The position numbers and the translations under genes were made by a program. Of a stretch of 64,000 nucleotides of DNA, positions 21,269 through 54,136 are shown piece after piece. The number at the start of each line of letters is the position of its first letter. The first letter of the stretch is position 1. Below the pieces are notes generated by a model that saw only the letters and a list, made by a program, of their open reading frames with translations, searched no databases and was not told where the DNA came from. This DNA is from Maribacter sp. (GTDB taxonomy: Bacteria > Bacteroidota > Bacteroidia > Flavobacteriales > Flavobacteriaceae): positions 1 to 64,000 of the forward strand of contig JAHENB010000003.1 of assembly GCA_024643345.1 (NCBI GenBank), written 5' to 3'.

Positions 21269-22516
21269 CTACTGATCCCGCAGGGCATCTATGGTATGGA
21301 TATGGGCCGCCCGCCATGCCGGAAAAAACCCTGCTAGGGCACCCGCCAAAATCAACACAAAAACCGTCGAGAGCGCCACGTTAAAGTTCACGGATGGATT
21401 CAGGATATAATCTACTTCTATCAATGGTCCCACCAGCTCTAAAAGTGCCATACTGAAAACGAGACCGCTAAACCCTGAGATGGCGGTCACAAAAATCGCC
21501 TCGTGAAGAATCATTCCTACAATGGATATGGGCTTCGCCCCCAAAGCCTTTCGTATTCCTATCTCCCTTGTCCTTTCCTTGACCACAATGAGCATGATGT
21601 TGCTTACCCCCACCACCCCGGCAATGATGGTGCAAATTCCGACGAACCAGAAAAAGAATTTTATATTTCCGGTGAGCCCATAGAATCTTTTTGCATTTTC
21701 CAAGGTATTGTACACATTAATGGCACTCCCATCATCAGGAGCCACCGAATGGACCTCTTGCAAATAGGATTTCAATTCCTGTGAAAATTGCATCGATTCA
21801 ACAACCGCCTGCTCAAAGCTTTCCGCCGGCTGTAAGGTATAAGAAAGGTTGTTCACTTGGTTGGCCCCATTGAATACCCGTTGTGCCGTAGTGATGGGAA
21901 TGAACATCCTATCTTCTTCGCGTTCGCCCCCTACATCACCGAATACGCCTATAATTTTGAATTTAATTCCGGAAAGATCCAAATATTCCCCCATGGGATC
22001 CTCGCCATTTTTGAAATATTCCCTTTTGATCTTGTTGCTGATGACGATCACTTTGGCTACTGATTCTTCATCACTTTGGTTGATGAACCTCCCTTGGGAA
22101 AGAAACTGGTTCTCGATGAACTGGAATCCGGAAGAAACGCCTTGAATGCTATATCCAATGGTTTCTTTCCCATAATTTACCGACACGTCGCGCACGCGAT
22201 AGACCGGCGATTTTTTGTCCAGGTTATCGGAAAATCTTGAGTTAACATAATCGTAGTTTTCATTTTTCAGTTCAATGCGACGGCCCGGATTAAGGCCTTT
22301 GTATTCCTTAGTGGTTACCTGGGTCCAAACCCAAATACGATTGCTGGCATCGGCCGCAAATTCTTTCGCGATGCCATTTTGCATGCCTTGGCCGAACCCC
22401 AATAAAATAACAAGTATAAAAATGCCCGAGGCCACAGAGAGGCCTGTAAGAAAAGTGCGAAGTTTGTTTTTACGGATGGTATCAAAGATTTCCTGCCATC
22501 TTTCGATATCGAACAT
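21269..22516 (-). CDS. MacB-like ABC transporter permease (first in the locus)
   Basis: A 415-residue permease with the same domain order as the three below it. The periplasmic core includes SDNLDKKSPVYRVRDVSVN, and the cytoplasmic loop is KERTREIGIRKALGAKPISI. The C-terminus is PAWRAAHIHTIDALRDQ. It is the first gene of the export locus on the minus strand; 111 bases separate it from the oxidase accessory operon, and I see no terminator there, so read-through is possible. It probably forms a heterodimer with the 19922-21181 product. Confidence 0.92.
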   Translation of the reverse strand: MFDIERWQEIFDTIRKNKLRTFLTGLSVASGIFILVILLGFGQGMQNGIAKEFAADASNRIWVWTQVTTKEYKGLNPGRRIELKNENYDYVNSRFSDNLDKKSPVYRVRDVSVNYGKETIGYSIQGVSSGFQFIENQFLSQGRFINQSDEESVAKVIVISNKIKREYFKNGEDPMGEYLDLSGIKFKIIGVFGDVGGEREEDRMFIPITTAQRVFNGANQVNNLSYTLQPAESFEQAVVESMQFSQELKSYLQEVHSVAPDDGSAINVYNTLENAKRFYGLTGNIKFFFWFVGICTIIAGVVGVSNIMLIVVKERTREIGIRKALGAKPISIVGMILHEAIFVTAISGFSGLVFSMALLELVGPLIEVDYILNPSVNFNVALSTVFVLILAGALAGFFPAWRAAHIHTIDALRDQ

Positions 22517-22627: not shown

Positions 22628-22840
22628 CTAGGTCCTCATTTTACGATAGACGAAATAAAACAGTACGCCGACCAAGAGGTATGGAATCGCCATCAAATAA
22701 ACAATTCCATTGTTCACCCCTTCCGCGACCGAGGTATTTCCTTCACTTTCCAAAACGGCCCTGCACATGGCACACTGTGCCATGATGCTCTGGGGAAGCA
22801 TAAGCCAAATGATGACTACAAAAAAGATTTTCTTTTTCAT
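22628..22840 (-). CDS. Small exported membrane protein with CxxC, end of the oxidase accessory operon
   Basis: A 70-residue protein. I place the start at the ATG 22840 (MKKKIFFVVIIWLML), because the longer open frame upstream lies inside the DUF420 gene and has no signal peptide. It has a cleavable signal sequence (about 1-21, IMAQ) immediately followed by Cys-Ala-Met-Cys (residues 22-25), a short soluble stretch and one C-terminal membrane helix (about 46-65) ending in a basic tail. It would therefore present a Cys pair in the periplasm, tethered to the membrane. It lies 14 bases after the DUF420 gene. I cannot name the family. Position and the CAMC motif suggest a role in copper or thiol handling during oxidase assembly; this is inference. 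Confidence 0.72.
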   Translation of the reverse strand: MKKKIFFVVIIWLMLPQSIMAQCAMCRAVLESEGNTSVAEGVNNGIVYLMAIPYLLVGVLFYFVYRKMRT

Positions 22841-22854
22841 GAACTGTACTGTAG

Positions 22855-23385
22855 CTAAGGATAAAAAGGCGAGATCATAAAATAAACAATGACCCCGGTA
22901 ACCGCCACATATAACCAAATCGGAAAAGTAATCTTGGCCCATTTGCGATGTTCGGCGAGCTTGTTCAAATATGCCCTCATGTAGGTCTTCAGAACCAAAG
23001 GGATGATCGCAATGGATAATATAACATGGGAAACCAAAATGAAATAGTACAAATACCGTATTGGGCCCTCTCCGCCGTACGAAGTAGAATCGGAAGTCAT
23101 GTGATAGGCCACGTACATTACCAAAAAGATCAGTGAAAGCACTATGCAACCGGTCATAAGGTTCCTGTGCAATTGCCGCTTCCCACTTTTAATGGCCCAA
23201 ACCGCCAACATCAGTAAAATTGCCGTAATGCCGTTGATAGTGGCATATAGGGGCGGCAAAAATCCCAAACGTTCCACATTGGGAATCTTTACTCCAAACA
23301 ATAGGGCCACTACCACTGGAATAACGACAGAGACCACATTGATCCATACATTTAACTTCCGTTCCTTTTGTGCCAAGGGTTCCAT
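22855..23385 (-). CDS. DUF420 membrane protein (oxidase-associated)
   Basis: A 176-residue protein with five predicted membrane helices. It has the family patterns NGITAILLMLAVWAIKSGKRQLHR (split over a helix and loop), AYHMTSDST and HVILSIAIIPLVLKT. DUF420 proteins are usually found beside cytochrome oxidase genes; the Bacillus relative CtaM is needed for caa3/aa3 oxidase maturation. Its ATG follows the SCO stop codon with no gap, so the two are translationally coupled. Conserved His residues (in YHMTSD and SHVILS) could bind heme or metal. Confidence 0.88.
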   Translation of the reverse strand: MEPLAQKERKLNVWINVVSVVIPVVVALLFGVKIPNVERLGFLPPLYATINGITAILLMLAVWAIKSGKRQLHRNLMTGCIVLSLIFLVMYVAYHMTSDSTSYGGEGPIRYLYYFILVSHVILSIAIIPLVLKTYMRAYLNKLAEHRKWAKITFPIWLYVAVTGVIVYFMISPFYP

Positions 23386-24120
23386 CTATTCCTGCAACAA
23401 TTTTTTTATATCTTCCTTCAATATCGAAATTTGTTCCTTTTCACCCTCTTCATTGGAGCCTTGCGCCTCGGTAATCGTGCCCCTGTAATATACGATGGGG
23501 TTGCCGAACGAATCGGTCCGAGATCTCAAATAGCCATTCTTGTCGATCAAGGCAAAAAGTCCCGAATGTTCAAACCCCCCGGGAGCATCCGGAATTTCCG
23601 CTGCAAAAATATAAAACCCGGCATTGGCCAAATCCAATATTTTTTCACTGTCACCGGTCATCAAATTCCAGTCGAGATCGGTGATACCGTTTCGTTCGGC
23701 GTATTCCTTGAGCACTGATGGCGTATCGTATTCCGGCGTAATGCTAAAAGAGGCAATTCCAAAATTATCCTCATCCTTAAAAGTATTTTGTATCCCTACC
23801 AAATTTTTGTTCATGATGGGGCAGATCGACGGGCAACTGGTGAAGAAAAACTCGACTACAAAAACCTTTCCCTTATAGTCTTTATCGGTTACCAAAAGAC
23901 TGTCTTGGTTCAAAAATGCAAAATTGGGAACCTTCCTTTTTTTACCGTTCGTCAGCACGTAGGAAAGCGGGGCTCCATTGGCCATAACGCCCACGTTCAT
24001 CCTATCGTTTTGCACAATGGTACCGTGCTTTATCCTATCGATGATCCTGGGTATAAAGATGATCCCAAAAACCAAAATGACCAAGGAGACCCAAACATAA
24101 GTGTATTTTCTTTTTTCCAT
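23386..24120 (-). CDS. SCO family copper-delivery protein
   Basis: A 244-residue thioredoxin-fold protein anchored by an N-terminal helix (about 7-26). It carries the copper-binding Cys96-Pro-Ser-Ile-Cys100 (FFFTSCPSICPIM) and the third ligand His185 (GGFEHSG). SCO proteins deliver copper to, or reduce the cysteines of, the CuA site of oxidase subunit II, here the product of 53078-54136, some 29 kb away. The 30-residue C-terminal tail is rich in Glu and Lys. The upstream neighbour is a cysteine-free protein of similar topology and the downstream neighbour is DUF420. Confidence 0.93.
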   Translation of the reverse strand: MEKRKYTYVWVSLVILVFGIIFIPRIIDRIKHGTIVQNDRMNVGVMANGAPLSYVLTNGKKRKVPNFAFLNQDSLLVTDKDYKGKVFVVEFFFTSCPSICPIMNKNLVGIQNTFKDEDNFGIASFSITPEYDTPSVLKEYAERNGITDLDWNLMTGDSEKILDLANAGFYIFAAEIPDAPGGFEHSGLFALIDKNGYLRSRTDSFGNPIVYYRGTITEAQGSNEEGEKEQISILKEDIKKLLQE

Positions 24121-24177: not shown

Positions 24178-24810
24178 TTACTTTGATCTATATGCGTTAT
24201 TTTTCTTCAATGCCAAGCGATACTCGGCCAAAATAATTTTAACGTCGTCCTCCATTTTATTATTAAGATCGGCCACCGAGGTGGTATCGAAACCATATTT
24301 GGTGCCTTCATCTTCATCGTCTTTGCGCCCCCGTAAATTTAAATCCTTATCTATAATGAATACATAAGGGGTATACAGGTCGGCGTCTAACAAGAGGTCG
24401 GTTTTTAAACCGTTGAACATCTCATGGATCCGGTTATCATCGGCATAAATGAAAAACCATTTGGAGGTATCGGCCAAGCTGCCCAATTCCCTTTTCAATT
24501 CATTGACCAGCGCCTCACTTTCTTTTGGGACCACGATTACGAACTGAAAATCATTAAACTCATAAAACCGCTTATAGATTTTTTGGTTGATATTAAAAAC
24601 ATTGCCTTTTTTGTTGGCCAAATCCCTGCCCAAAAAGCCCAATACCGTTATCTTATTTTTTAGCGAAAAAGTATCATTGAGTACGCTTATATCCGTAATA
24701 TTTTCGGTGAGTATAGGCAATTTCCCGAAGTTGTTCACCCCAGATGCAAAGAATAGGTAAGCGACAATGGGCAACACAAACAATACTAAGAGAACAAGGG
24801 TCTTTTTCAT
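24178..24810 (-). CDS. Cysteine-free SCO/thioredoxin-like membrane-anchored protein
   Basis: A 210-residue protein; I take the ATG at 24810 rather than the TTG one codon before. It has an N-terminal membrane helix (about 4-23), then a domain with ITVLGFLGRDLANKKGNVFN, FQFVIVVPKE, WFFIYADD and YTPYVFIIDKDLNLRGRKDD. This strand order and the late FIIDKDLNLRG segment resemble SCO/AhpC-type thioredoxin folds, but there is not one cysteine in the protein, so redox or CxxxC copper chemistry is excluded. It sits between oxidase subunit IV and SCO, behind a terminator with its own -7 box. The role is unknown; a structural or competing partner of SCO is a guess. Confidence 0.7.
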   Translation of the reverse strand: MKKTLVLLVLFVLPIVAYLFFASGVNNFGKLPILTENITDISVLNDTFSLKNKITVLGFLGRDLANKKGNVFNINQKIYKRFYEFNDFQFVIVVPKESEALVNELKRELGSLADTSKWFFIYADDNRIHEMFNGLKTDLLLDADLYTPYVFIIDKDLNLRGRKDDEDEGTKYGFDTTSVADLNNKMEDDVKIILAEYRLALKKNNAYRSK

Positions 24811-24826
24811 CAAACCAATTTCTGTG

Positions 24827-24834: not shown

Positions 24835-24860
24835 AAAAAGACGGTTTTGAAACCGTCTTA
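24834..24860 (-). terminator. Terminator after oxidase subunit IV
   Basis: On the minus strand AAGACGGTTT pairs with AAACCGTCTT around a 2-base centre (24838-24859), followed by a T-rich run. It lies 32 bases past the subunit IV stop and directly before the cysteine-free SCO-like gene, so it likely terminates or attenuates the operon here. Confidence 0.75.
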
Positions 24861-24891: not shown

Positions 24892-25275
24892 CTAAAAGTT
24901 CCATTTTACGAAGCCATCCTTGTACACGTTGTAAACGTAGTCTGCTTCAAATAAAAGGATGAACACCAAATAAGCTACCAGAAAAATGGGGGTCCAAACA
25001 ACCGCCCTTCGAAGGGAAGATTTTTCGTCCCGAAGATGCATAAAATCCCATGCGATATAATAGGCCTTTACTAGGGTCAGGGTGATAAATATCCAATTGA
25101 GCACCTTCATTCCCAAAAAATGCGAGTGGGTCAAAGACTGTGGCTTGGTGATACCCAAAGCTACCTCAACGGCAGTTACCACTGTTAAAAATACGAGAAC
25201 CCCCCAAATCTTTTGGGTGTTCGACTTAAATTTTAAAAGTCCCCTGAAAATCTCCAATTTGTGTGCGTGTGCCAT
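24892..25275 (-). CDS. Cytochrome c oxidase subunit IV-like protein
   Basis: A 127-residue protein with three predicted membrane helices (about 24-43, 55-78 and 90-112), matching the small prokaryotic subunit IV family (COX4_pro). It has ALGITKPQSLTHSHFLGMKV between the first two helices and AYYIAWDFMHLRDEKSSL on the cytoplasmic side. Subunit IV is not catalytic and stabilises the oxidase. It starts 56 bases after subunit III and is followed by a terminator hairpin. Confidence 0.88.
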   Translation of the reverse strand: MAHAHKLEIFRGLLKFKSNTQKIWGVLVFLTVVTAVEVALGITKPQSLTHSHFLGMKVLNWIFITLTLVKAYYIAWDFMHLRDEKSSLRRAVVWTPIFLVAYLVFILLFEADYVYNVYKDGFVKWNF

Positions 25276-25331: not shown

Positions 25332-26306
25332 CTATACCAAATAAAAGAAGGTAAATACAAAGACCCAAACCAAATCCACAAAGTGCCAGTATAGTCCAAC
25401 TTTTTCAACCATTTCGTAGTGGCCCCTGCGTTCGTAGGTCCCTAAAATCACATTAAAGAAAATGATGATATTGATCATTACCCCAGAAAATACGTGAAAG
25501 CCGTGAAAGCCCGTAATGAAGAAAAAGAAATCGGCAAAAAGTCGACTGCCATATTCATTCTGTACCAAGTTGGCCCCTTCGACCACCATCTTGGCATCCT
25601 TGATCTTTTCTAGCGATGCCTCTCTTGAAAGTACCGTTTTGTGGCCGTCCTCATTAATGACCTCGGTACGTATCAAAATATTGGGGTTGGCCTTTAAGCC
25701 TTCCTCCACCTCGGTAACGGAATACGATGGCAAAAAGCCCTCTTTTTGGAACCAAACGCCATCGTTACGTTCGTCCCTTACCCGCTCCGATGGGATGGAT
25801 TTCGCAAAATCGGCCAAAGCTGCCCTTTCGCCCGTATCAGCCTTCACAAATTGCAATATCCTCCCGCCATTGGTCTCTATTGCCCCGTAATCGCCTCGAA
25901 TGAAGGTCGCCCATTCCCAGGCCTGTGAACCCACGAAAATGGCGCCCCCGATAATCGTAAGGAACATGTACCATATTACGGCATTTTGTTTCATTTTATG
26001 CCCTGCATCTACTGCAAGTACCATGGTAACCGAAGACATGATCAAAATAAAGGTCATGAATGCCACATAATACATGGGGTAATTTCCATGGAAAAACGGC
26101 ACGTGGGTAAATACTTGGTCGGCAATGGGCCAAGTTTCGATGAACTTGAACCTTGAAAAACCGTACGCTGCCAAAAAACCCGAAAAAGTAAGCGCATCCG
26201 AAACAAGGAAGAACCACATCATCAATTTGCCATAACTGGCACCCAAAGGCCTATTACCGCCTCCCCAAACGTTTTCTTCCGTAGCTGATGTTACCGTAGA
26301 ATCCAT
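25332..26306 (-). CDS. Cytochrome c oxidase subunit III, long form with hydrophilic insert
   Basis: A 324-residue subunit III of heme-copper oxidase, which binds lipid and supports proton uptake by subunit I. Five membrane helices are recognisable, with KLMMWFFLVSDALTFSGF, VGSQAWEWATFIRGDYG, FFFITGFHGFHVFSGV and GLYWHFVDLVWVFVFTFFYL. Between the third/fourth helix region and the fifth is a charged stretch of roughly 120 residues (about 138-258) that the 193-residue paralogue next door lacks. An exact -7 box with a TTTG lies just upstream. The insert has no recognisable motif. Confidence 0.93.
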   Translation of the reverse strand: MDSTVTSATEENVWGGGNRPLGASYGKLMMWFFLVSDALTFSGFLAAYGFSRFKFIETWPIADQVFTHVPFFHGNYPMYYVAFMTFILIMSSVTMVLAVDAGHKMKQNAVIWYMFLTIIGGAIFVGSQAWEWATFIRGDYGAIETNGGRILQFVKADTGERAALADFAKSIPSERVRDERNDGVWFQKEGFLPSYSVTEVEEGLKANPNILIRTEVINEDGHKTVLSREASLEKIKDAKMVVEGANLVQNEYGSRLFADFFFFITGFHGFHVFSGVMINIIIFFNVILGTYERRGHYEMVEKVGLYWHFVDLVWVFVFTFFYLV

Positions 26307-26401: not shown

Positions 26402-26983
26402 TTATTTAACAAGGGTCATGAACAATACCAAATACACCCATAACAGGTCTAAAAAGTGCCAGAATGTAGCCCCTAATGAGATTCCCAGATACGATTCGGA
26501 AGTGTATTTCCCATTCACTTGATTAAAGAGTACCACGGTCAAAGAAATGATCCCAGCCAATACGTGTGCAATATGCACCGCTGCAATCAAAAAAACATAG
26601 GACATTTTAATACTACTGGTCGGGCCGGTAAAGTAGTAGCCATATGACAGCATTTCGTTGAAGCCCCTGAATTGCAAAAAGATGAAGGCCGCACCCAGCG
26701 CCAAGGTGACGAACAGCCAGGTAGTGCATTCTTTTTTCCGATTGTGCCGTATGGCGTTTTTGGCCAAAATATAGCTTACGCTACTGACAAGGATTACCGC
26801 CGTGCTGATATAAAAATAATAGGGAAGTTGGAGATCGGTCAACCAGTCTTCCCGGCTGCTGCTCACGATATAGGCACTCGTCCAACCAGCAAAACCCATT
26901 AAAAGGCTAGCGATACCGAACCATAGCATCATTTTCTTTGCCCTTTCATTTTTCTCCTTATCGGTACCTTGGGTTAAATCCAT
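26402..26983 (-). CDS. Cytochrome c oxidase subunit III, short form
   Basis: A 193-residue, five-helix subunit III-like protein: MMLWFGIASLLMGFAGWTSA, the LQFRGFNEMLSYGYYFTGP loop, AAVHIAHVLAGIISL and the closing GATFWHFLDLLWVYLVLFMTLV. It keeps the HFLDLLWVYL motif of family members but has no hydrophilic insert. It lies 9 bases after the heme O synthase stop, so the two are co-translated. Two subunit III paralogues next to each other suggest either two oxidase forms or a split function within one complex; the sequence does not decide. Confidence 0.92.
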   Translation of the reverse strand: MDLTQGTDKEKNERAKKMMLWFGIASLLMGFAGWTSAYIVSSSREDWLTDLQLPYYFYISTAVILVSSVSYILAKNAIRHNRKKECTTWLFVTLALGAAFIFLQFRGFNEMLSYGYYFTGPTSSIKMSYVFLIAAVHIAHVLAGIISLTVVLFNQVNGKYTSESYLGISLGATFWHFLDLLWVYLVLFMTLVK

Positions 26984-26992
26984 AGTTTAGGG

Positions 26993-27892
26993 TTATATTA
27001 ATTTGTCAACGACATAGACCAATTGCATCAGGGTAATATAGGTTACACTTGCGAGCATCAATTTTTTGGCTGAGGCATTGTCCCTTTTTTCATAAAGTCG
27101 GAATGCAAAGAACAACATCACCGTGCCCATCAAAAAAATCAGGGCCGCTGCCAGAACGGAAAGCTGTAACTTTCCCGTTATGCCGAAGACAGGAATGACC
27201 GAAATGACCATCATCCAAATGGTATACATAATGATCTGCAATGCTGTGCCCTTGTCTTTTTTGCCCGTTGGCAACATTTTGAACCCGCCTTTTTTGTAAT
27301 CATCGTCCAACATCCATCCCAATGCCCAAAAATGGGGAAATTGCCAAAAAAATTGAATCATGAACAAGGTGCCGGGCTCAATTCCAAAATCATTGGTGGC
27401 CGCTACCCAACCCAACATGAAAGGAATGGCACCTGGAAAGGCGCCCACAAAAACCGAAAGCGGTGTTTTGGTTTTAAGGGGCGTGTAAACACTGGTATAC
27501 AAGAAGATCGAAATTGCCCCGAACATCGCCGTTTTCGGATTGAGGATATACAAAGTGACGATACCCAGAACGGTAAGTGCGATGGCTATAGACATGGCAC
27601 GGGTGACCGTCATTCTTCCGGAGGGAATGGGCCGGTTACGGGTACGGTTCATCAGCGCATCAAGATCTTTTTCAATGACCTGATTATAGGCGTTTGAGGC
27701 GCCGACCATACAATAGCCACCAAATGCCAACAGCAATAATGGCGTCAACGACAACTGATCTGCCCCCAAAAAATATCCCGCAATGGAAGAGAATACCACA
27801 CTGATGGCAAGCCGTGCCTTTGTAATTTCCTTAAAATCGGAAAAGACCAAAGCCAATGAGGTGTTTCGAGCCGTACCAACCGCGGTTTTCAT
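26993..27892 (-). CDS. cyoE: Protoheme IX farnesyltransferase (heme O synthase)
   Basis: A 299-residue UbiA-family polytopic membrane enzyme that adds a farnesyl group to protoheme to make heme O, the precursor of heme A for the aa3 oxidase. Residues 67-88 carry the Asp/Asn/Arg-rich active-site segment NAYNQVIEKDLDALMNR with RNRPIPSG. A second polar loop has FWQFPHFWALGWMLDDDYKKGG. Nine hydrophobic helices are expected. It is the first gene of the accessory operon, with a strong promoter 20-50 bases upstream, and is divergent from the metallo-beta-lactamase gene. Heme A synthase (CtaA) is not in the window. The name ctaB is also in use. Confidence 0.95.
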   Translation of the reverse strand: MKTAVGTARNTSLALVFSDFKEITKARLAISVVFSSIAGYFLGADQLSLTPLLLLAFGGYCMVGASNAYNQVIEKDLDALMNRTRNRPIPSGRMTVTRAMSIAIALTVLGIVTLYILNPKTAMFGAISIFLYTSVYTPLKTKTPLSVFVGAFPGAIPFMLGWVAATNDFGIEPGTLFMIQFFWQFPHFWALGWMLDDDYKKGGFKMLPTGKKDKGTALQIIMYTIWMMVISVIPVFGITGKLQLSVLAAALIFLMGTVMLFFAFRLYEKRDNASAKKLMLASVTYITLMQLVYVVDKLI

Positions 27893-51212: not shown

Positions 51213-53036
51213 CTAATGGTTCATTTCTTCCTCGTCTTTTTGCAAAGGAACGGTCTGCGGCACAAAATCTTGTCCCGGAATAATGTATTCCCCATTTTCA
51301 TCGACCTTGCTATAATCATATGCCCAACGATGAACATGAGGTATGGGGCCATCCCAGTTGCCATGGATGTGTTTCATTTCTGCAGTCCATTCCAAAGTAT
51401 TCGATTTCCAAGGGTTTTTAGGGCCTTTCTTTCCATAAAATATACTACTGATGAAATTGTATAGAAAGACCAATTGGGCTAATCCAGCGATAAGCGCAAA
51501 TACCGTCATCAAAATCTGTACATCGGTCAATTCATCGAACATTGGGAAGGCCGTATTTTCATAATATCGCCTTGGCACACCCGCCATTCCCACGAAGTGC
51601 ATGGGAAAGAATACCCCATACGCACATATTGCGGTTACCCAAAAATGAACATACCCTAAATTCTTGTTCATCATTTTTCCTTCAAACATCTTGGGAAACC
51701 AGTGATAAACCCCAGCGAATAATCCGTACAAGGCCGATATTCCCATCACCAAATGAAAATGGGCAACAACGAAATAAGTATCATGTACATTGATATCAAG
51801 GGTACTGTCCCCTAAAATAATACCGGTTAAACCCCCGGTGATAAAGGTAGACACCAAACCTATGGAAAACAGCATCGCAGGATTCAGCTGCAAATTTCCT
51901 TTCCATAAGGTAGTGATATAGTTAAATGCCTTTACAGCGGAAGGTATGGCGATCAATAAGGTGGTAAAGGTGAACACCGAACCAAGAAACGGGTTCATTC
52001 CTGAAATAAACATATGGTGGCCCCATACGATGGTTGACAAGAATGCGATGGCCAAAATCGATGCGACCATGGCACGGTAACCAAAAATAGGTTTACGGGC
52101 ATTGGTGGACATCACTTCTGAGGTAATGCCCAAAGCCGGCAGCAAAACGATATATACCTCCGGGTGTCCCAAAAACCAGAACAAGTGCTCATAAAGCACT
52201 GGAGAACCACCTTGATAGTGCAATACTTCGCCTTGGATAAAAATATCGGATAGGAAGAAAGAGGTGCCAAAACTTCTGTCCATGATCAGCAACAACGCGG
52301 CCGACAATAAAACAGGGAATGAAATTACCCCAATGACCGCAGTTACAAAAAATGCCCAAATGGTCAGAGGCAACCTGGTCATCGACATGCCTTTGGTCCT
52401 AAGGTTGATTACCGTTACGATGTAGTTCAAGGAACCCAAGAGGGAAGAAGCAATAAAAATGGCCATCGATACCAACCAAAGGGTCATCCCCATACCCGAA
52501 CCTGGTTGTGCCATGGGCAGGGCGCTAAGTGGGGGATAAATCGTCCACCCCGCAGCGGCCGGTCCGGCCTCCACGAACAATGAGAGTACCATGATGACAC
52601 TAGATATGAAGAACATCCAATACGAGAGCATGTTCAAAAATCCCGAAGCCATATCACGTGCCCCGATCTGTAAAGGGATCAATAAATTACTAAAAGTACC
52701 GCTCAGTCCGGCCGTAAGTACAAAGAACACCATGATCGTGCCGTGGATGGTAATCAAAGCCAAGTAAATATTGGCATCCATTACGCCGTCAGGGGCCCAT
52801 CGTCCCAATATCGTCTCAAAAAGCGGGAAAGATTGCCCTGGCCAGGCCAGTTGCATCCTAAATATCAGGGACATGGCTATTCCGATAAAGCCCATGATCA
52901 AACCCGTAATCAAGTATTGCCTGGCGATCATTTTATGATCTTGACTGAAAATATATTTGGTTACAAAAGTTTCTTTGTGGTGGTGGGCGTGATCCTCTGA
53001 ATGATCTTCTACATGCGCATGTGCTGTTGCAGACAT
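51213..53036 (-). CDS. coxA: Cytochrome c oxidase subunit I with His-rich N-terminus
   Basis: A 607-residue catalytic subunit of an A-type heme-copper oxidase with at least twelve membrane helices. It has IHGTIMVFFVLTAGLSGTF, WFLGHPEVYIVLLPALG with the CuB/His-Tyr segment, and DTYFVVAHFHLVMG with the heme ligands. The first 20 residues contain seven histidines (positions 6, 8, 12, 16, 18, 19 and 20), an extension not needed for catalysis. The C-terminal 70 residues form a charged extramembrane tail. It is the last gene of the operon, 41 bases after subunit II. The exact heme type (a3) is inferred from operon context. Confidence 0.96.
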   Translation of the reverse strand: MSATAHAHVEDHSEDHAHHHKETFVTKYIFSQDHKMIARQYLITGLIMGFIGIAMSLIFRMQLAWPGQSFPLFETILGRWAPDGVMDANIYLALITIHGTIMVFFVLTAGLSGTFSNLLIPLQIGARDMASGFLNMLSYWMFFISSVIMVLSLFVEAGPAAAGWTIYPPLSALPMAQPGSGMGMTLWLVSMAIFIASSLLGSLNYIVTVINLRTKGMSMTRLPLTIWAFFVTAVIGVISFPVLLSAALLLIMDRSFGTSFFLSDIFIQGEVLHYQGGSPVLYEHLFWFLGHPEVYIVLLPALGITSEVMSTNARKPIFGYRAMVASILAIAFLSTIVWGHHMFISGMNPFLGSVFTFTTLLIAIPSAVKAFNYITTLWKGNLQLNPAMLFSIGLVSTFITGGLTGIILGDSTLDINVHDTYFVVAHFHLVMGISALYGLFAGVYHWFPKMFEGKMMNKNLGYVHFWVTAICAYGVFFPMHFVGMAGVPRRYYENTAFPMFDELTDVQILMTVFALIAGLAQLVFLYNFISSIFYGKKGPKNPWKSNTLEWTAEMKHIHGNWDGPIPHVHRWAYDYSKVDENGEYIIPGQDFVPQTVPLQKDEEEMNH

Positions 53037-53077: not shown

Positions 53078-54136
53078 TTATTGTACCGAAGCCATGGTTT
53101 GGCCAAAAGACTGCTGTCCTGCCATCCAGGCATCATATTCTTCCTGCGTTTCGACAATAATCTTCATTTGCATATTGTAATGCGATTTACCGCAAATCTT
53201 GTTGCAAAGCAGAATATAGTCGAATTCCCATGGATCTGAATTATCTTCTCCATTGGCCGCCCTTTCTGCCCTAATGGCATTGGTACGTTTTACCTTATCT
53301 ACCACATCGGGATCTAGTCGTGCCTCTGCTGTGGTCTTTGTTGGGGTAAACGAAAATTCGGTGATCATGCCCGGAACACAGTTCATCTGAGCCCTAAAAT
53401 GGGGCATATAAGCCGAATGCAATACGTCTTGTGAACGCATTTTAAAATTCACTTTTCTTCCCACGGGAAGGTGTAGTTCCTTTACGATCACATCATCGGT
53501 CGCATAGGAATCCGATTCATCCAATCCAAGGACATTGGCCCTATCGATATCGATCATCCTTACATTGGCACTTCCCAATACGTTATCGGCACCGCCGTAT
53601 CTTGCCGTCCAGTTGAACTGTTGGGCGTAAAGCTCCACGATCAACGGATCGTCATCTTCGTTTACATCCATGATACTTGTCCAGGTATATAGTCCCCAAA
53701 GAATCAAGCCTGCCAAAACGATTACGGGAATAATCGTCCAAATAAATTCGAGGCGATCGTTATCGGAATAAAACAAGGCTTTTTTGTTTTTTTCTCCCCG
53801 ATATTTATAACCGAAGTAATGCAAAAGAGCCTGGGTTATCGTCTGCACTACAAAGATAATGATCATCGATATCAACATCAAATAATCATATTCCCCGCCA
53901 TGGGCAGAGGCCGCTTCCGGAAGCAGTACTTTGGTATACTTCCAAAAACTGAATATGGTGATGCCGTATATGAAAATCAAAAAGGCAAACAACATATAAC
54001 CATTGTTCTTGTTATCGGTGTCGTTGGCGATTTGGTGGCGCTCTGTTTTCAATCGGGACAATTCGAAAATCTTGGTCATTTGCCAAATTGCAATCGCCAC
54101 CAGAACCAGAACAGTTAAAATCAGTAATGTCGTCAT
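53078..54136 (-). CDS. coxB: Cytochrome c oxidase subunit II
   Basis: A 352-residue subunit that receives electrons at a binuclear CuA site in the periplasm. It has an extra N-terminal hydrophobic segment before the two usual membrane helices (about 50-70, 90-113 and 131-152). CuA ligands are visible: the DVLHSAYMPHF histidine, then Cys-Asn-Lys-Ile-Cys-Gly-Lys-Ser-His-Tyr-Asn-Met (LLCNKICGKSHYNM). About 50 extra residues lie between the first His loop and the Cys loop. No heme c domain is fused, so it is an aa3-type rather than a caa3 enzyme. It follows actF by 31 bases, supporting an Act-oxidase supercomplex. Confidence 0.95.
   Translation of the reverse strand: MTTLLILTVLVLVAIAIWQMTKIFELSRLKTERHQIANDTDNKNNGYMLFAFLIFIYGITIFSFWKYTKVLLPEAASAHGGEYDYLMLISMIIIFVVQTITQALLHYFGYKYRGEKNKKALFYSDNDRLEFIWTIIPVIVLAGLILWGLYTWTSIMDVNEDDDPLIVELYAQQFNWTARYGGADNVLGSANVRMIDIDRANVLGLDESDSYATDDVIVKELHLPVGRKVNFKMRSQDVLHSAYMPHFRAQMNCVPGMITEFSFTPTKTTAEARLDPDVVDKVKRTNAIRAERAANGEDNSDPWEFDYILLCNKICGKSHYNMQMKIIVETQEEYDAWMAGQQSFGQTMASVQ

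Follow-up and report, generated by a model that had tools for sequence, protein, structure and literature searches.

Closest Described Systems

SCO1/SenC proteins and the TlpA/ResA-type proteins that act with them as reductants present a membrane-tethered periplasmic cysteine pair for CuA assembly, an arrangement resembling that of the 70-residue protein described here. However, they have a thioredoxin fold, whereas the 70-residue family gives no such domain match. CtaM (DUF420; YozB in B. subtilis, CtaM in S. aureus) is likewise an oxidase assembly protein, is encoded in the same cluster and co-occurs with the 70-residue protein in Bacteroidia, but it is a four- or five-helix protein (PMC9145763, in the section concerned) with invariant histidines in the sequences considered here, compared with the single helix of the 70-residue protein. 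The string “bacteroid” does not occur in that review. How copper reaches the oxidase where PCuAC and Cox11 are lacking is presented as open, and the role of DUF420/CtaM as unsettled, in the relevant parts of PMC9145763 and PMC13344008. The PCuAC and Cox11/CtaG carriers occupy the place in the pathway that we propose for the 70-residue protein, but their domains are not matched by the family, and the carriers were found in 0/119 sampled Bacteroidia genomes, while the same models match in 3/14 (PCuAC) and 1/14 (Cox11) control genomes.

Two further groups are similar in kind. CutF-type leaders act by an arrest mechanism during their own translation. CutF-like and DUF2946 proteins are small, exported and carry a Cys motif near copper genes (passages of PMC8456105), as does the 70-residue protein, but CutF has a CXXXC motif (CXXC in DUF2946) and a C-terminal PP motif, and the family has no such Pfam match. 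Prokaryotic UxxC/CxxU selenoproteins, in which selenocysteine (Sec) and Cys stand two residues apart and a SECIS-like hairpin follows the UGA, resemble the TGA-containing relatives described below; no row of Table 1 of a May 2026 inventory of 119 prokaryotic selenoprotein families and subfamilies, the part of PMC13188914 compared, matches the 70-residue family by description. No account of either the Cys or the Sec form was seen in the open-licence literature; Supplement S9 of PMC4807772, which covers candidate selenoproteins from two Planctomycetes, lies outside that scope. An oxidase assembly factor and a UxxC/CxxU selenoprotein are thus kinds of protein already known; the family itself, its link to SCO and DUF420, and its Sec forms appear to be new.

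The Gene and Its Surroundings

The window, the 64,000 nucleotides of Maribacter sp. DNA analysed, contains a genuine open reading frame on the minus strand from 22840 (ATG) to 22628 (end of the TAG stop), encoding 70 residues, MKKKIFFVVIIWLMLPQSIMAQCAMCRAVLESEGNTSVAEGVNNGIVYLMAIPYLLVGVLFYFVYRKMRT; the plus-strand reading of the same positions gives a different product. Immediately upstream on the same strand are a DUF420 (CtaM-type) membrane protein (22855–23385, PF04238, E 6.9e-46), with 14 bp between its stop and the start of the 70-residue gene, and a SCO1/SenC protein with a CxxxC motif, CPSIC (23386–24120, PF02630, E 3.5e-25), so that the gene does directly follow SCO and DUF420, as the first-pass annotation had it. 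The minus-strand series begins with the heme O synthase gene ctaB (26993–27892, over the TIGR01473 cut-off) and continues with two genes for cytochrome oxidase subunit III-like proteins (26402–26983 and 25332–26306, both PF00510), subunit IV (24892–25275, PF03626), a SCO-like membrane protein without Cys (24178–24813, without a Pfam match, although an iterated profile recruits SCO proteins), SCO and DUF420, with the 70-residue gene last. COX1 (51213–53036, minus strand, PF00115), COX2 (53078–54136, minus strand; PF00116/PF02790, with the CuA-type string CNKICGKSHYNM in its translation) and the alternative complex III genes lie 28–40 kb away, within the window. The gene had been described as ending its operon. 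It is the last gene of oxidase content, but a MacB/FtsX-type gene (21269–22516) follows on the same strand after 111 bp.

Three details of the surrounding series were also observed. The Cys-free SCO-like gene (24178–24813, minus strand) adjoins SCO, and several relatives' loci likewise have two SCO-type genes in tandem. The COX3-type subunit encoded at 25332–26306 (minus strand) is 324 residues long, and its match to the COX3 profile is split in two, which suggests an insert. A terminator-like stem with a T-rich tail is present at 24838–24859 (minus strand), between COX4 and the SCO-like gene; terminator-like sites in this region are about as frequent as chance would give (9, compared with a mean of 6.9).

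Gene position bears on the proposal that the product senses copper or redox state as a CutF-like leader peptide while it is being translated. Although a small exported Cys-motif protein within copper operons fits that description, the gene is last of its series in the window and relocated copies (see below) have varied neighbours. DUF2946 is not among the families listed for the 65 members of our family alignment, the consensus of which has neither the CXXXC nor the C-terminal proline motif that the parts of PMC8456105 consulted give for CutF. We therefore regard a leader function as very improbable.

Protein Architecture and Family Assignment

Residues 1–21 (MKKKIFFVVIIWLMLPQSIMA; 22778–22840, minus strand) form a predicted signal peptide with cleavage before Gln22, residues 23–26 are the Cys-Ala-Met-Cys motif with the CxxC pair (22763–22774, minus strand, from the alignment), and a single transmembrane helix spans approximately residues 46–64 (22649–22705, minus strand), followed by a basic tail ending in RKMRT. 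The helix is assigned from hydropathy, the most hydrophobic 15-residue windows being 5–19 and 46–60, and from an AlphaFold2 prediction made with the window protein and 21 relatives, which gives two helices, one of them at 36–69 (mean pLDDT 78, pTM 0.47), and has neither a domain nor a fold suitable for comparison. From the signal segment, the single helix and the basic tail we infer export and orientation: the CxxC pair should face the periplasm close to the membrane, whether the signal is cleaved or uncleaved.

The first-pass annotation placed CAMC directly at the mature N-terminus. The motif probably lies near it but is not its first residue, since Gln precedes the first Cys in 104/105 sequences, which fits signal peptidase cleavage before Gln, the Q-rule described for Bacteroidetes (PMC5837995, in the part consulted), and gives a predicted mature end of (pyro)Glu-Cys-Ala-Met-Cys. 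Pyroglutamate at inner-membrane proteins is named there, in the same part, as a point still to be tested. The mature protein would comprise only ~49 residues. A lipoprotein was rejected for Bacteroidia on the same grounds, there being no lipobox and Gln at −1 in 104/105 sequences; a lipobox-like start is found in 6/29 loci from a scan of named contigs, mostly MAGs of Kapabacteria/Ignavibacteria. Attachment of c-type heme was likewise rejected: no CxxCH is present, and the second Cys is followed by Lys or Arg in 87/106 sequences and by His in one.

Searched against Pfam, NCBIfam and PHROGs, the 70-residue protein does not reach the cut-off of any model, and PDB sequences gave no match to it. 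The family of 65 likewise has no PDB match, and at E≤0.01 any Pfam or NCBIfam family that matches at all does so in at most 2/65 members. The thioredoxin/TlpA/SCO fold is not among the families listed at this threshold, nor is the HMA copper chaperone (Pfam HMA) among those listed for the 65 members, and neither the window protein nor any of the 65 matches the PCuAC domain. We dismissed as noise a weak DUF898 match (E 0.031), single-member Pfam/NCBIfam matches (best E 0.0014, at most 2/65 members) and PDB matches at E≥0.26.

The absence of any member from solved structures, as searched in the PDB, argues in a small way against another alternative, that the protein is a structural oxidase subunit in which CxxC binds a structural metal or forms a disulfide. 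The point is weak because the oxidase part may not be modelled in 6btm, the alternative complex III (ACIII) entry, which gives the best match to ActD but is absent from the entries that COX1 matches at E≤1e-50. The gene stands beside COX3/COX4 and encodes a single helix with a conserved P-Y and a basic tail, as a small subunit might. However, the Cys pair is invariant, Sec forms exist, and the gene is retained away from the cluster in 24/105 genomes; we consider a structural role improbable.

Conservation across Bacteroidia

The first description of the locus as encoding a tiny membrane protein with a signal segment, CAMC and one transmembrane helix was confirmed. Relatives of the 70-residue protein are present in 105/119 sampled Bacteroidia genomes; Flavobacterium johnsoniae, a laboratory strain open to genetic manipulation whose bd oxidase is predicted to bypass ACIII/aa3 (PMC8552683), would by its family be expected to carry the gene. 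The Bacteroidia alignment contains 106 sequences, two of them from locus L099, and surroundings were fetched for 104 loci beyond the window; the broken second copy of G022 (L135) was removed before counting. Both Cys are invariant in all 106 sequences and in 65/65 of the family alignment (A1), in which identity to the window protein falls as low as 27%. Homologues without CxxC, which would have told against the original proposal, were not found in the Bacteroidia set, although conservation of the pair is somewhat favoured by the search because the query itself has CxxC. In or near the helix, Asn (102/106), Ile (103/106) and Pro (104/106) are also strongly conserved in this alignment. The codons of the pair vary, all four TGC/TGT combinations occurring (32, 26, 24 and 23 of 105); this variation and the presence of relatives in 105/119 genomes exclude a chance small ORF. 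The window protein uses TGT and TGC and no TGA, and hence is not a selenoprotein.

The spacing of Cys and Met had been taken to suit Cu(I) binding. By profile column the Met before the second Cys is present in 84/106 Bacteroidia sequences and in 0/29 loci of the named-contig scan, where PA, PN or PS stands between the cysteines, and a Cu(I) site that depends on this Met is not supported.

The 14 Bacteroidia genomes without the gene yielded a lone profile match, L252, by eye a heavy-metal-type protein containing AQCEMCKKKIE; this CxMC-like string apparently belongs to another family, and we rejected it as a member. Tiny signal-CxxC-helix proteins were also observed in other oxidase clusters (L099:6844–7056, L150:9383–9607 and L168:1579–1821, all plus strand), with strings including ACSVCKGGAS... 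and ACPTCYGD...; they are too divergent for clear membership, and possibly form a wider superfamily with the 70-residue family.

Co-occurrence and Linkage with DUF420 and SCO

DUF420 scores over cut-off in 107/119 Bacteroidia genomes (the match in G089 is below cut-off), and its four His are invariant in 77/77 aligned relatives. A relative of the 70-residue protein is carried by 105 of these 107 genomes and by 0/12 of the others (Fisher 9.6e-15, with genomes treated as independent although they are related). The two exceptions, G031 and G102, have DUF420 but no relative, by the family profile or in the frames after DUF420. Heme A synthase is present in 106/119 and COX2 in 103/119 of the genomes.

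A same-strand gene of DUF420 or SCO type is found no more than 1.5 kb away in 76/105 Bacteroidia loci; in 71/105 DUF420 is the next upstream gene, and in 81/105 some oxidase-cluster gene is in the fetched region. The genes that separate DUF420 from the relative at L098, L106, L107 and L116 are unrelated by eye. In the remaining 24/105 loci, 3 of them at contig ends, the copy lies away from the cluster and no neighbour family recurs in more than four. Neighbourhood with DUF420/SCO thus holds for most loci rather than always, yet DUF420 persists in the genomes whose copy lies apart from the cluster.

By gene linkage, SCO and DUF420 are the partners of the 70-residue protein. The same linkage is consistent with a Cu(I) carrier, in which the Cys pair (or Sec and Cys) would take Cu(I) via DUF420 to SCO or to CuA/CuB without redox cycling: copper-assembly genes adjoin the gene, and CtaM/DUF420 is proposed to export copper to Sco in the relevant part of PMC13344008. 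A carrier is also wanted in these organisms because searches for PCuAC and Cox11 were negative in all 119 genomes, and the heavy-metal-type L252 protein, with its similar string, is among the profile matches. However, conserved His or Met ligands are absent beside the Cys pair, and the Sec forms described below bear further on this reading.

Relatives beyond Bacteroidia

Of 296 genomes sampled more broadly from the phylum, 75 match the profile and 149 have DUF420. Among 20 chosen DUF420 loci without a detected relative, six (L151–L154, L164 and L169) have a divergent relative, and 14 have none nearby. Because many DUF420 genomes of the wider phylum, together with G031 and G102, have no detected relative, DUF420 does not require the 70-residue protein. 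Several variant arrangements were observed. The relative stands after COX4 and before SCO in L136 and L137, and in L138 and L139 it follows COX4 with SCO upstream; DUF420 is elsewhere in all four genomes. L155–L159, from one family (f72) of the wider phylum, have DUF420 without SCO or a relative nearby.

Twenty-nine loci were recovered in the scan of named genome contigs; most come from Kapabacteria/Ignavibacteria MAGs, and one, L198, is labelled Pirellulaceae; several are on the same contigs or genomes that supplied the query. With L198 left out, 27/28 adjoin SCO and/or DUF420, the exception, L181, being at a contig edge. At six of the MAG loci (L185–L190, labelled Ignavibacteria, Kapabacteria or Bacteroidota) the relative directly follows SCO, with no DUF420 detected between them. 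L198 has no oxidase-cluster gene within its 11 kb. In its phylum (Planctomycetota, NCBI taxonomy) 46/149 genomes match the profile, and oxidase-cluster genes, counted on both strands, occur in the fetched piece at 17 of the first 20 Planctomycete-phylum loci. In five loci (L233, L245, L247, L249 and L250) the preceding gene fuses a CxxxC-bearing SCO region to a DUF420 region; Planctomycete SCO–DUF420 fusions are cited in a passage of PMC13344008 as support for copper transfer from DUF420 to Sco. Linkage to DUF420/SCO across classes and in a second phylum, together with the lack of a family match, bears out the original suggestion of a candidate small oxidase-assembly factor outside known families. 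A search of the plasmid collection gave no matches.

TGA Codons at the CxxC Positions

In 23 of the 46 positive Planctomycete-phylum genomes a single in-frame TGA lies within the match. It falls exactly at the first Cys in 18 genomes (UxxC) and at the second in five (CxxU), and never at both. Among the remaining 23, 20 have the CxxC form, and three (G541, G430 and G530) have no stop inside the profile match. L264, a locus of G405 with two adjacent TGAs and no intact motif, was set aside as perhaps a decayed family-like frame, and G405 was counted by its CPNC copy. Two-copy genomes were also seen (L243, and G490 with L235 and L272), the latter combining one Sec and one Cys form.

All 23 TGA genes have a start codon (ATG in 16, GTG or TTG in the rest) and a signal-type segment before the single internal TGA, and a helix and tail downstream of it; in 12/23 the terminating stop codon is also TGA. 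Annotated oxidase-cluster neighbours are present at 20/23 loci, and at least one of these frames, taken as annotated, ends in TGA in 20/20. Genome-wide reassignment of TGA was therefore rejected, as neighbouring frames terminate in it. Sequencing error was rejected in turn, with 23 genomes affected and the hairpin described below confined to the TGA forms. No match over cut-off in NCBIfam or Pfam was obtained for the 10/23 TGA members scanned, the best being QOXA (E 0.001, with 18 bits where the cut-off is 241). A tRNA-Sec was found in none of the fetched locus pieces, a result that carries no weight for or against Sec. Planctomycetes with full Sec-insertion gene sets are described in the part of PMC4807772 consulted. 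Because the TGA aligns with a conserved Cys, neighbouring genes stop at TGA and a SECIS-like covarying hairpin follows, the sequence comparison indicates that these codons probably encode selenocysteine in the Planctomycete-phylum relatives, which would then be UxxC or CxxU proteins. Annotation would probably treat such TGA forms as truncated genes or miss them altogether.

SECIS-like Hairpins

Bacterial SECIS elements share a small apical loop with a G (PMC1088965, in the section concerned). The rule applied here asks for a stem of 5 bp or more whose loop includes GGU, the first G falling at nucleotide 21–25 from the TGA. Such a hairpin was found in 17/23 TGA genes and, measured from either Cys, in 0/20 Cys genes (18 from the Planctomycete phylum; L197 and L199 from elsewhere), counts that are descriptive because the rule was fixed after folds had been examined. 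When the 57 nucleotides downstream were shuffled by single bases in 500 rounds, on average 0.7 and never more than 5 genes had the hairpin. In the CxxU genes, where the TGA comes 9 nucleotides later in frame, the GGU loop is displaced along with it. Six of the 23 TGA genes, five of them UxxC, fail the rule.

Covariation is the stronger check. Across all 18 UxxC genes, 87% of cells pair and 18 cells are changed on both sides; the covariation score is 0.456, compared with 0.150 ± 0.040 for shuffles that ignore the relatedness of the sequences, none of 500 of which scored as high, and slid partners score at most 0.113. Two of the five covariation measures were equalled by 17 and 15 of the 500 shuffles. 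In 13 genes picked for pairing, 5/6 pairs covary. The TGA genes also fold better than the Cys genes relative to shuffles (p 4e-4). The stability of single hairpins was unremarkable in most of the six tested (z −0.3 to −2.5), and for one of these, L259, the predicted fold differs from the SECIS-like hairpin. Rfam SECIS models gave no match at E≤5 on 14 loci.

Proposed Role

We propose, tentatively and with a little under even confidence, that these tiny exported single-helix proteins form a new family that acts as a redox partner of SCO and DUF420 in loading copper into the oxidase. The gene, its architecture, the invariant CxxC, co-occurrence, linkage, and the TGA-for-Cys exchange with its SECIS-like hairpins provide a computational basis, from which we infer a redox step and its substrate, and by which what the Sec relatives suggest would extend to the window protein, the Cys form with Cys at both positions. 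In the proposed mechanism a dithiol (or selenol–thiol) pair at the periplasmic membrane surface would work with SCO and DUF420/CtaM, reducing SCO, the CuA cysteines of COX2 or incoming Cu(II), such that copper could bind and move on into the heme-A cytochrome oxidase; Cu(I) might be held briefly by the 70-residue protein itself. A reductant of SCO, COX2 or Cu(II) is favoured because Sec at either Cys of CxxC is common in redox selenoproteins, UxxC and CxxU being their usual redox motifs (relevant parts of PMC1088965 and PMC13188914).

The same exchange of Sec and Cys at either position, as a common pattern of redox pairs, argues against the Cu(I) carrier without redox cycling. Sec does not, however, prove thiol catalysis, because it also ligates the metal of FdhA and of NiFeSe hydrogenase and is listed in metal-handling families (CopZ-type, SO_0444 Cu/Zn efflux, cation ATPase and mercuric transport protein) in Table 1 and related parts of PMC13188914. 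The inclusion of copper- and metal-transport families in that inventory lowers our estimate for the redox reading, and for the broader selenium proposal below, and raises that for the carrier, which we hold to be doubtful, if well short of improbable. No thioredoxin or other known redox domain was found among the 65 members, which counts against the redox partner, as do the short mature length of ~49 residues and the lack of an electron donor among the genes identified. Of the two functions offered at the outset, copper handling or thiol chemistry, the Sec forms tilt somewhat to thiol redox over metal ligation.

If the redox partner is the correct reading, selenium may enter oxidase biogenesis. 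This broader proposal, which we hold with slightly more reserve than the redox reading, is that in Planctomycetota, Kapabacteria/Ignavibacteria and Bacteroidota small membrane proteins of the UxxC/CxxU and Cys forms, a family not listed before, would reduce SCO/CuA (or Cu(II)) and so ready it for the insertion of copper. Among these bacteria, at least Bacteroidia are without PCuAC and Cox11. The Sec forms, if true, would link selenium to respiratory copper assembly and would mark the two Cys as working residues. A partner of DUF420 that is retained by nearly every sampled DUF420-bearing Bacteroidia genome would offer a direct handle on copper delivery to the oxidase.
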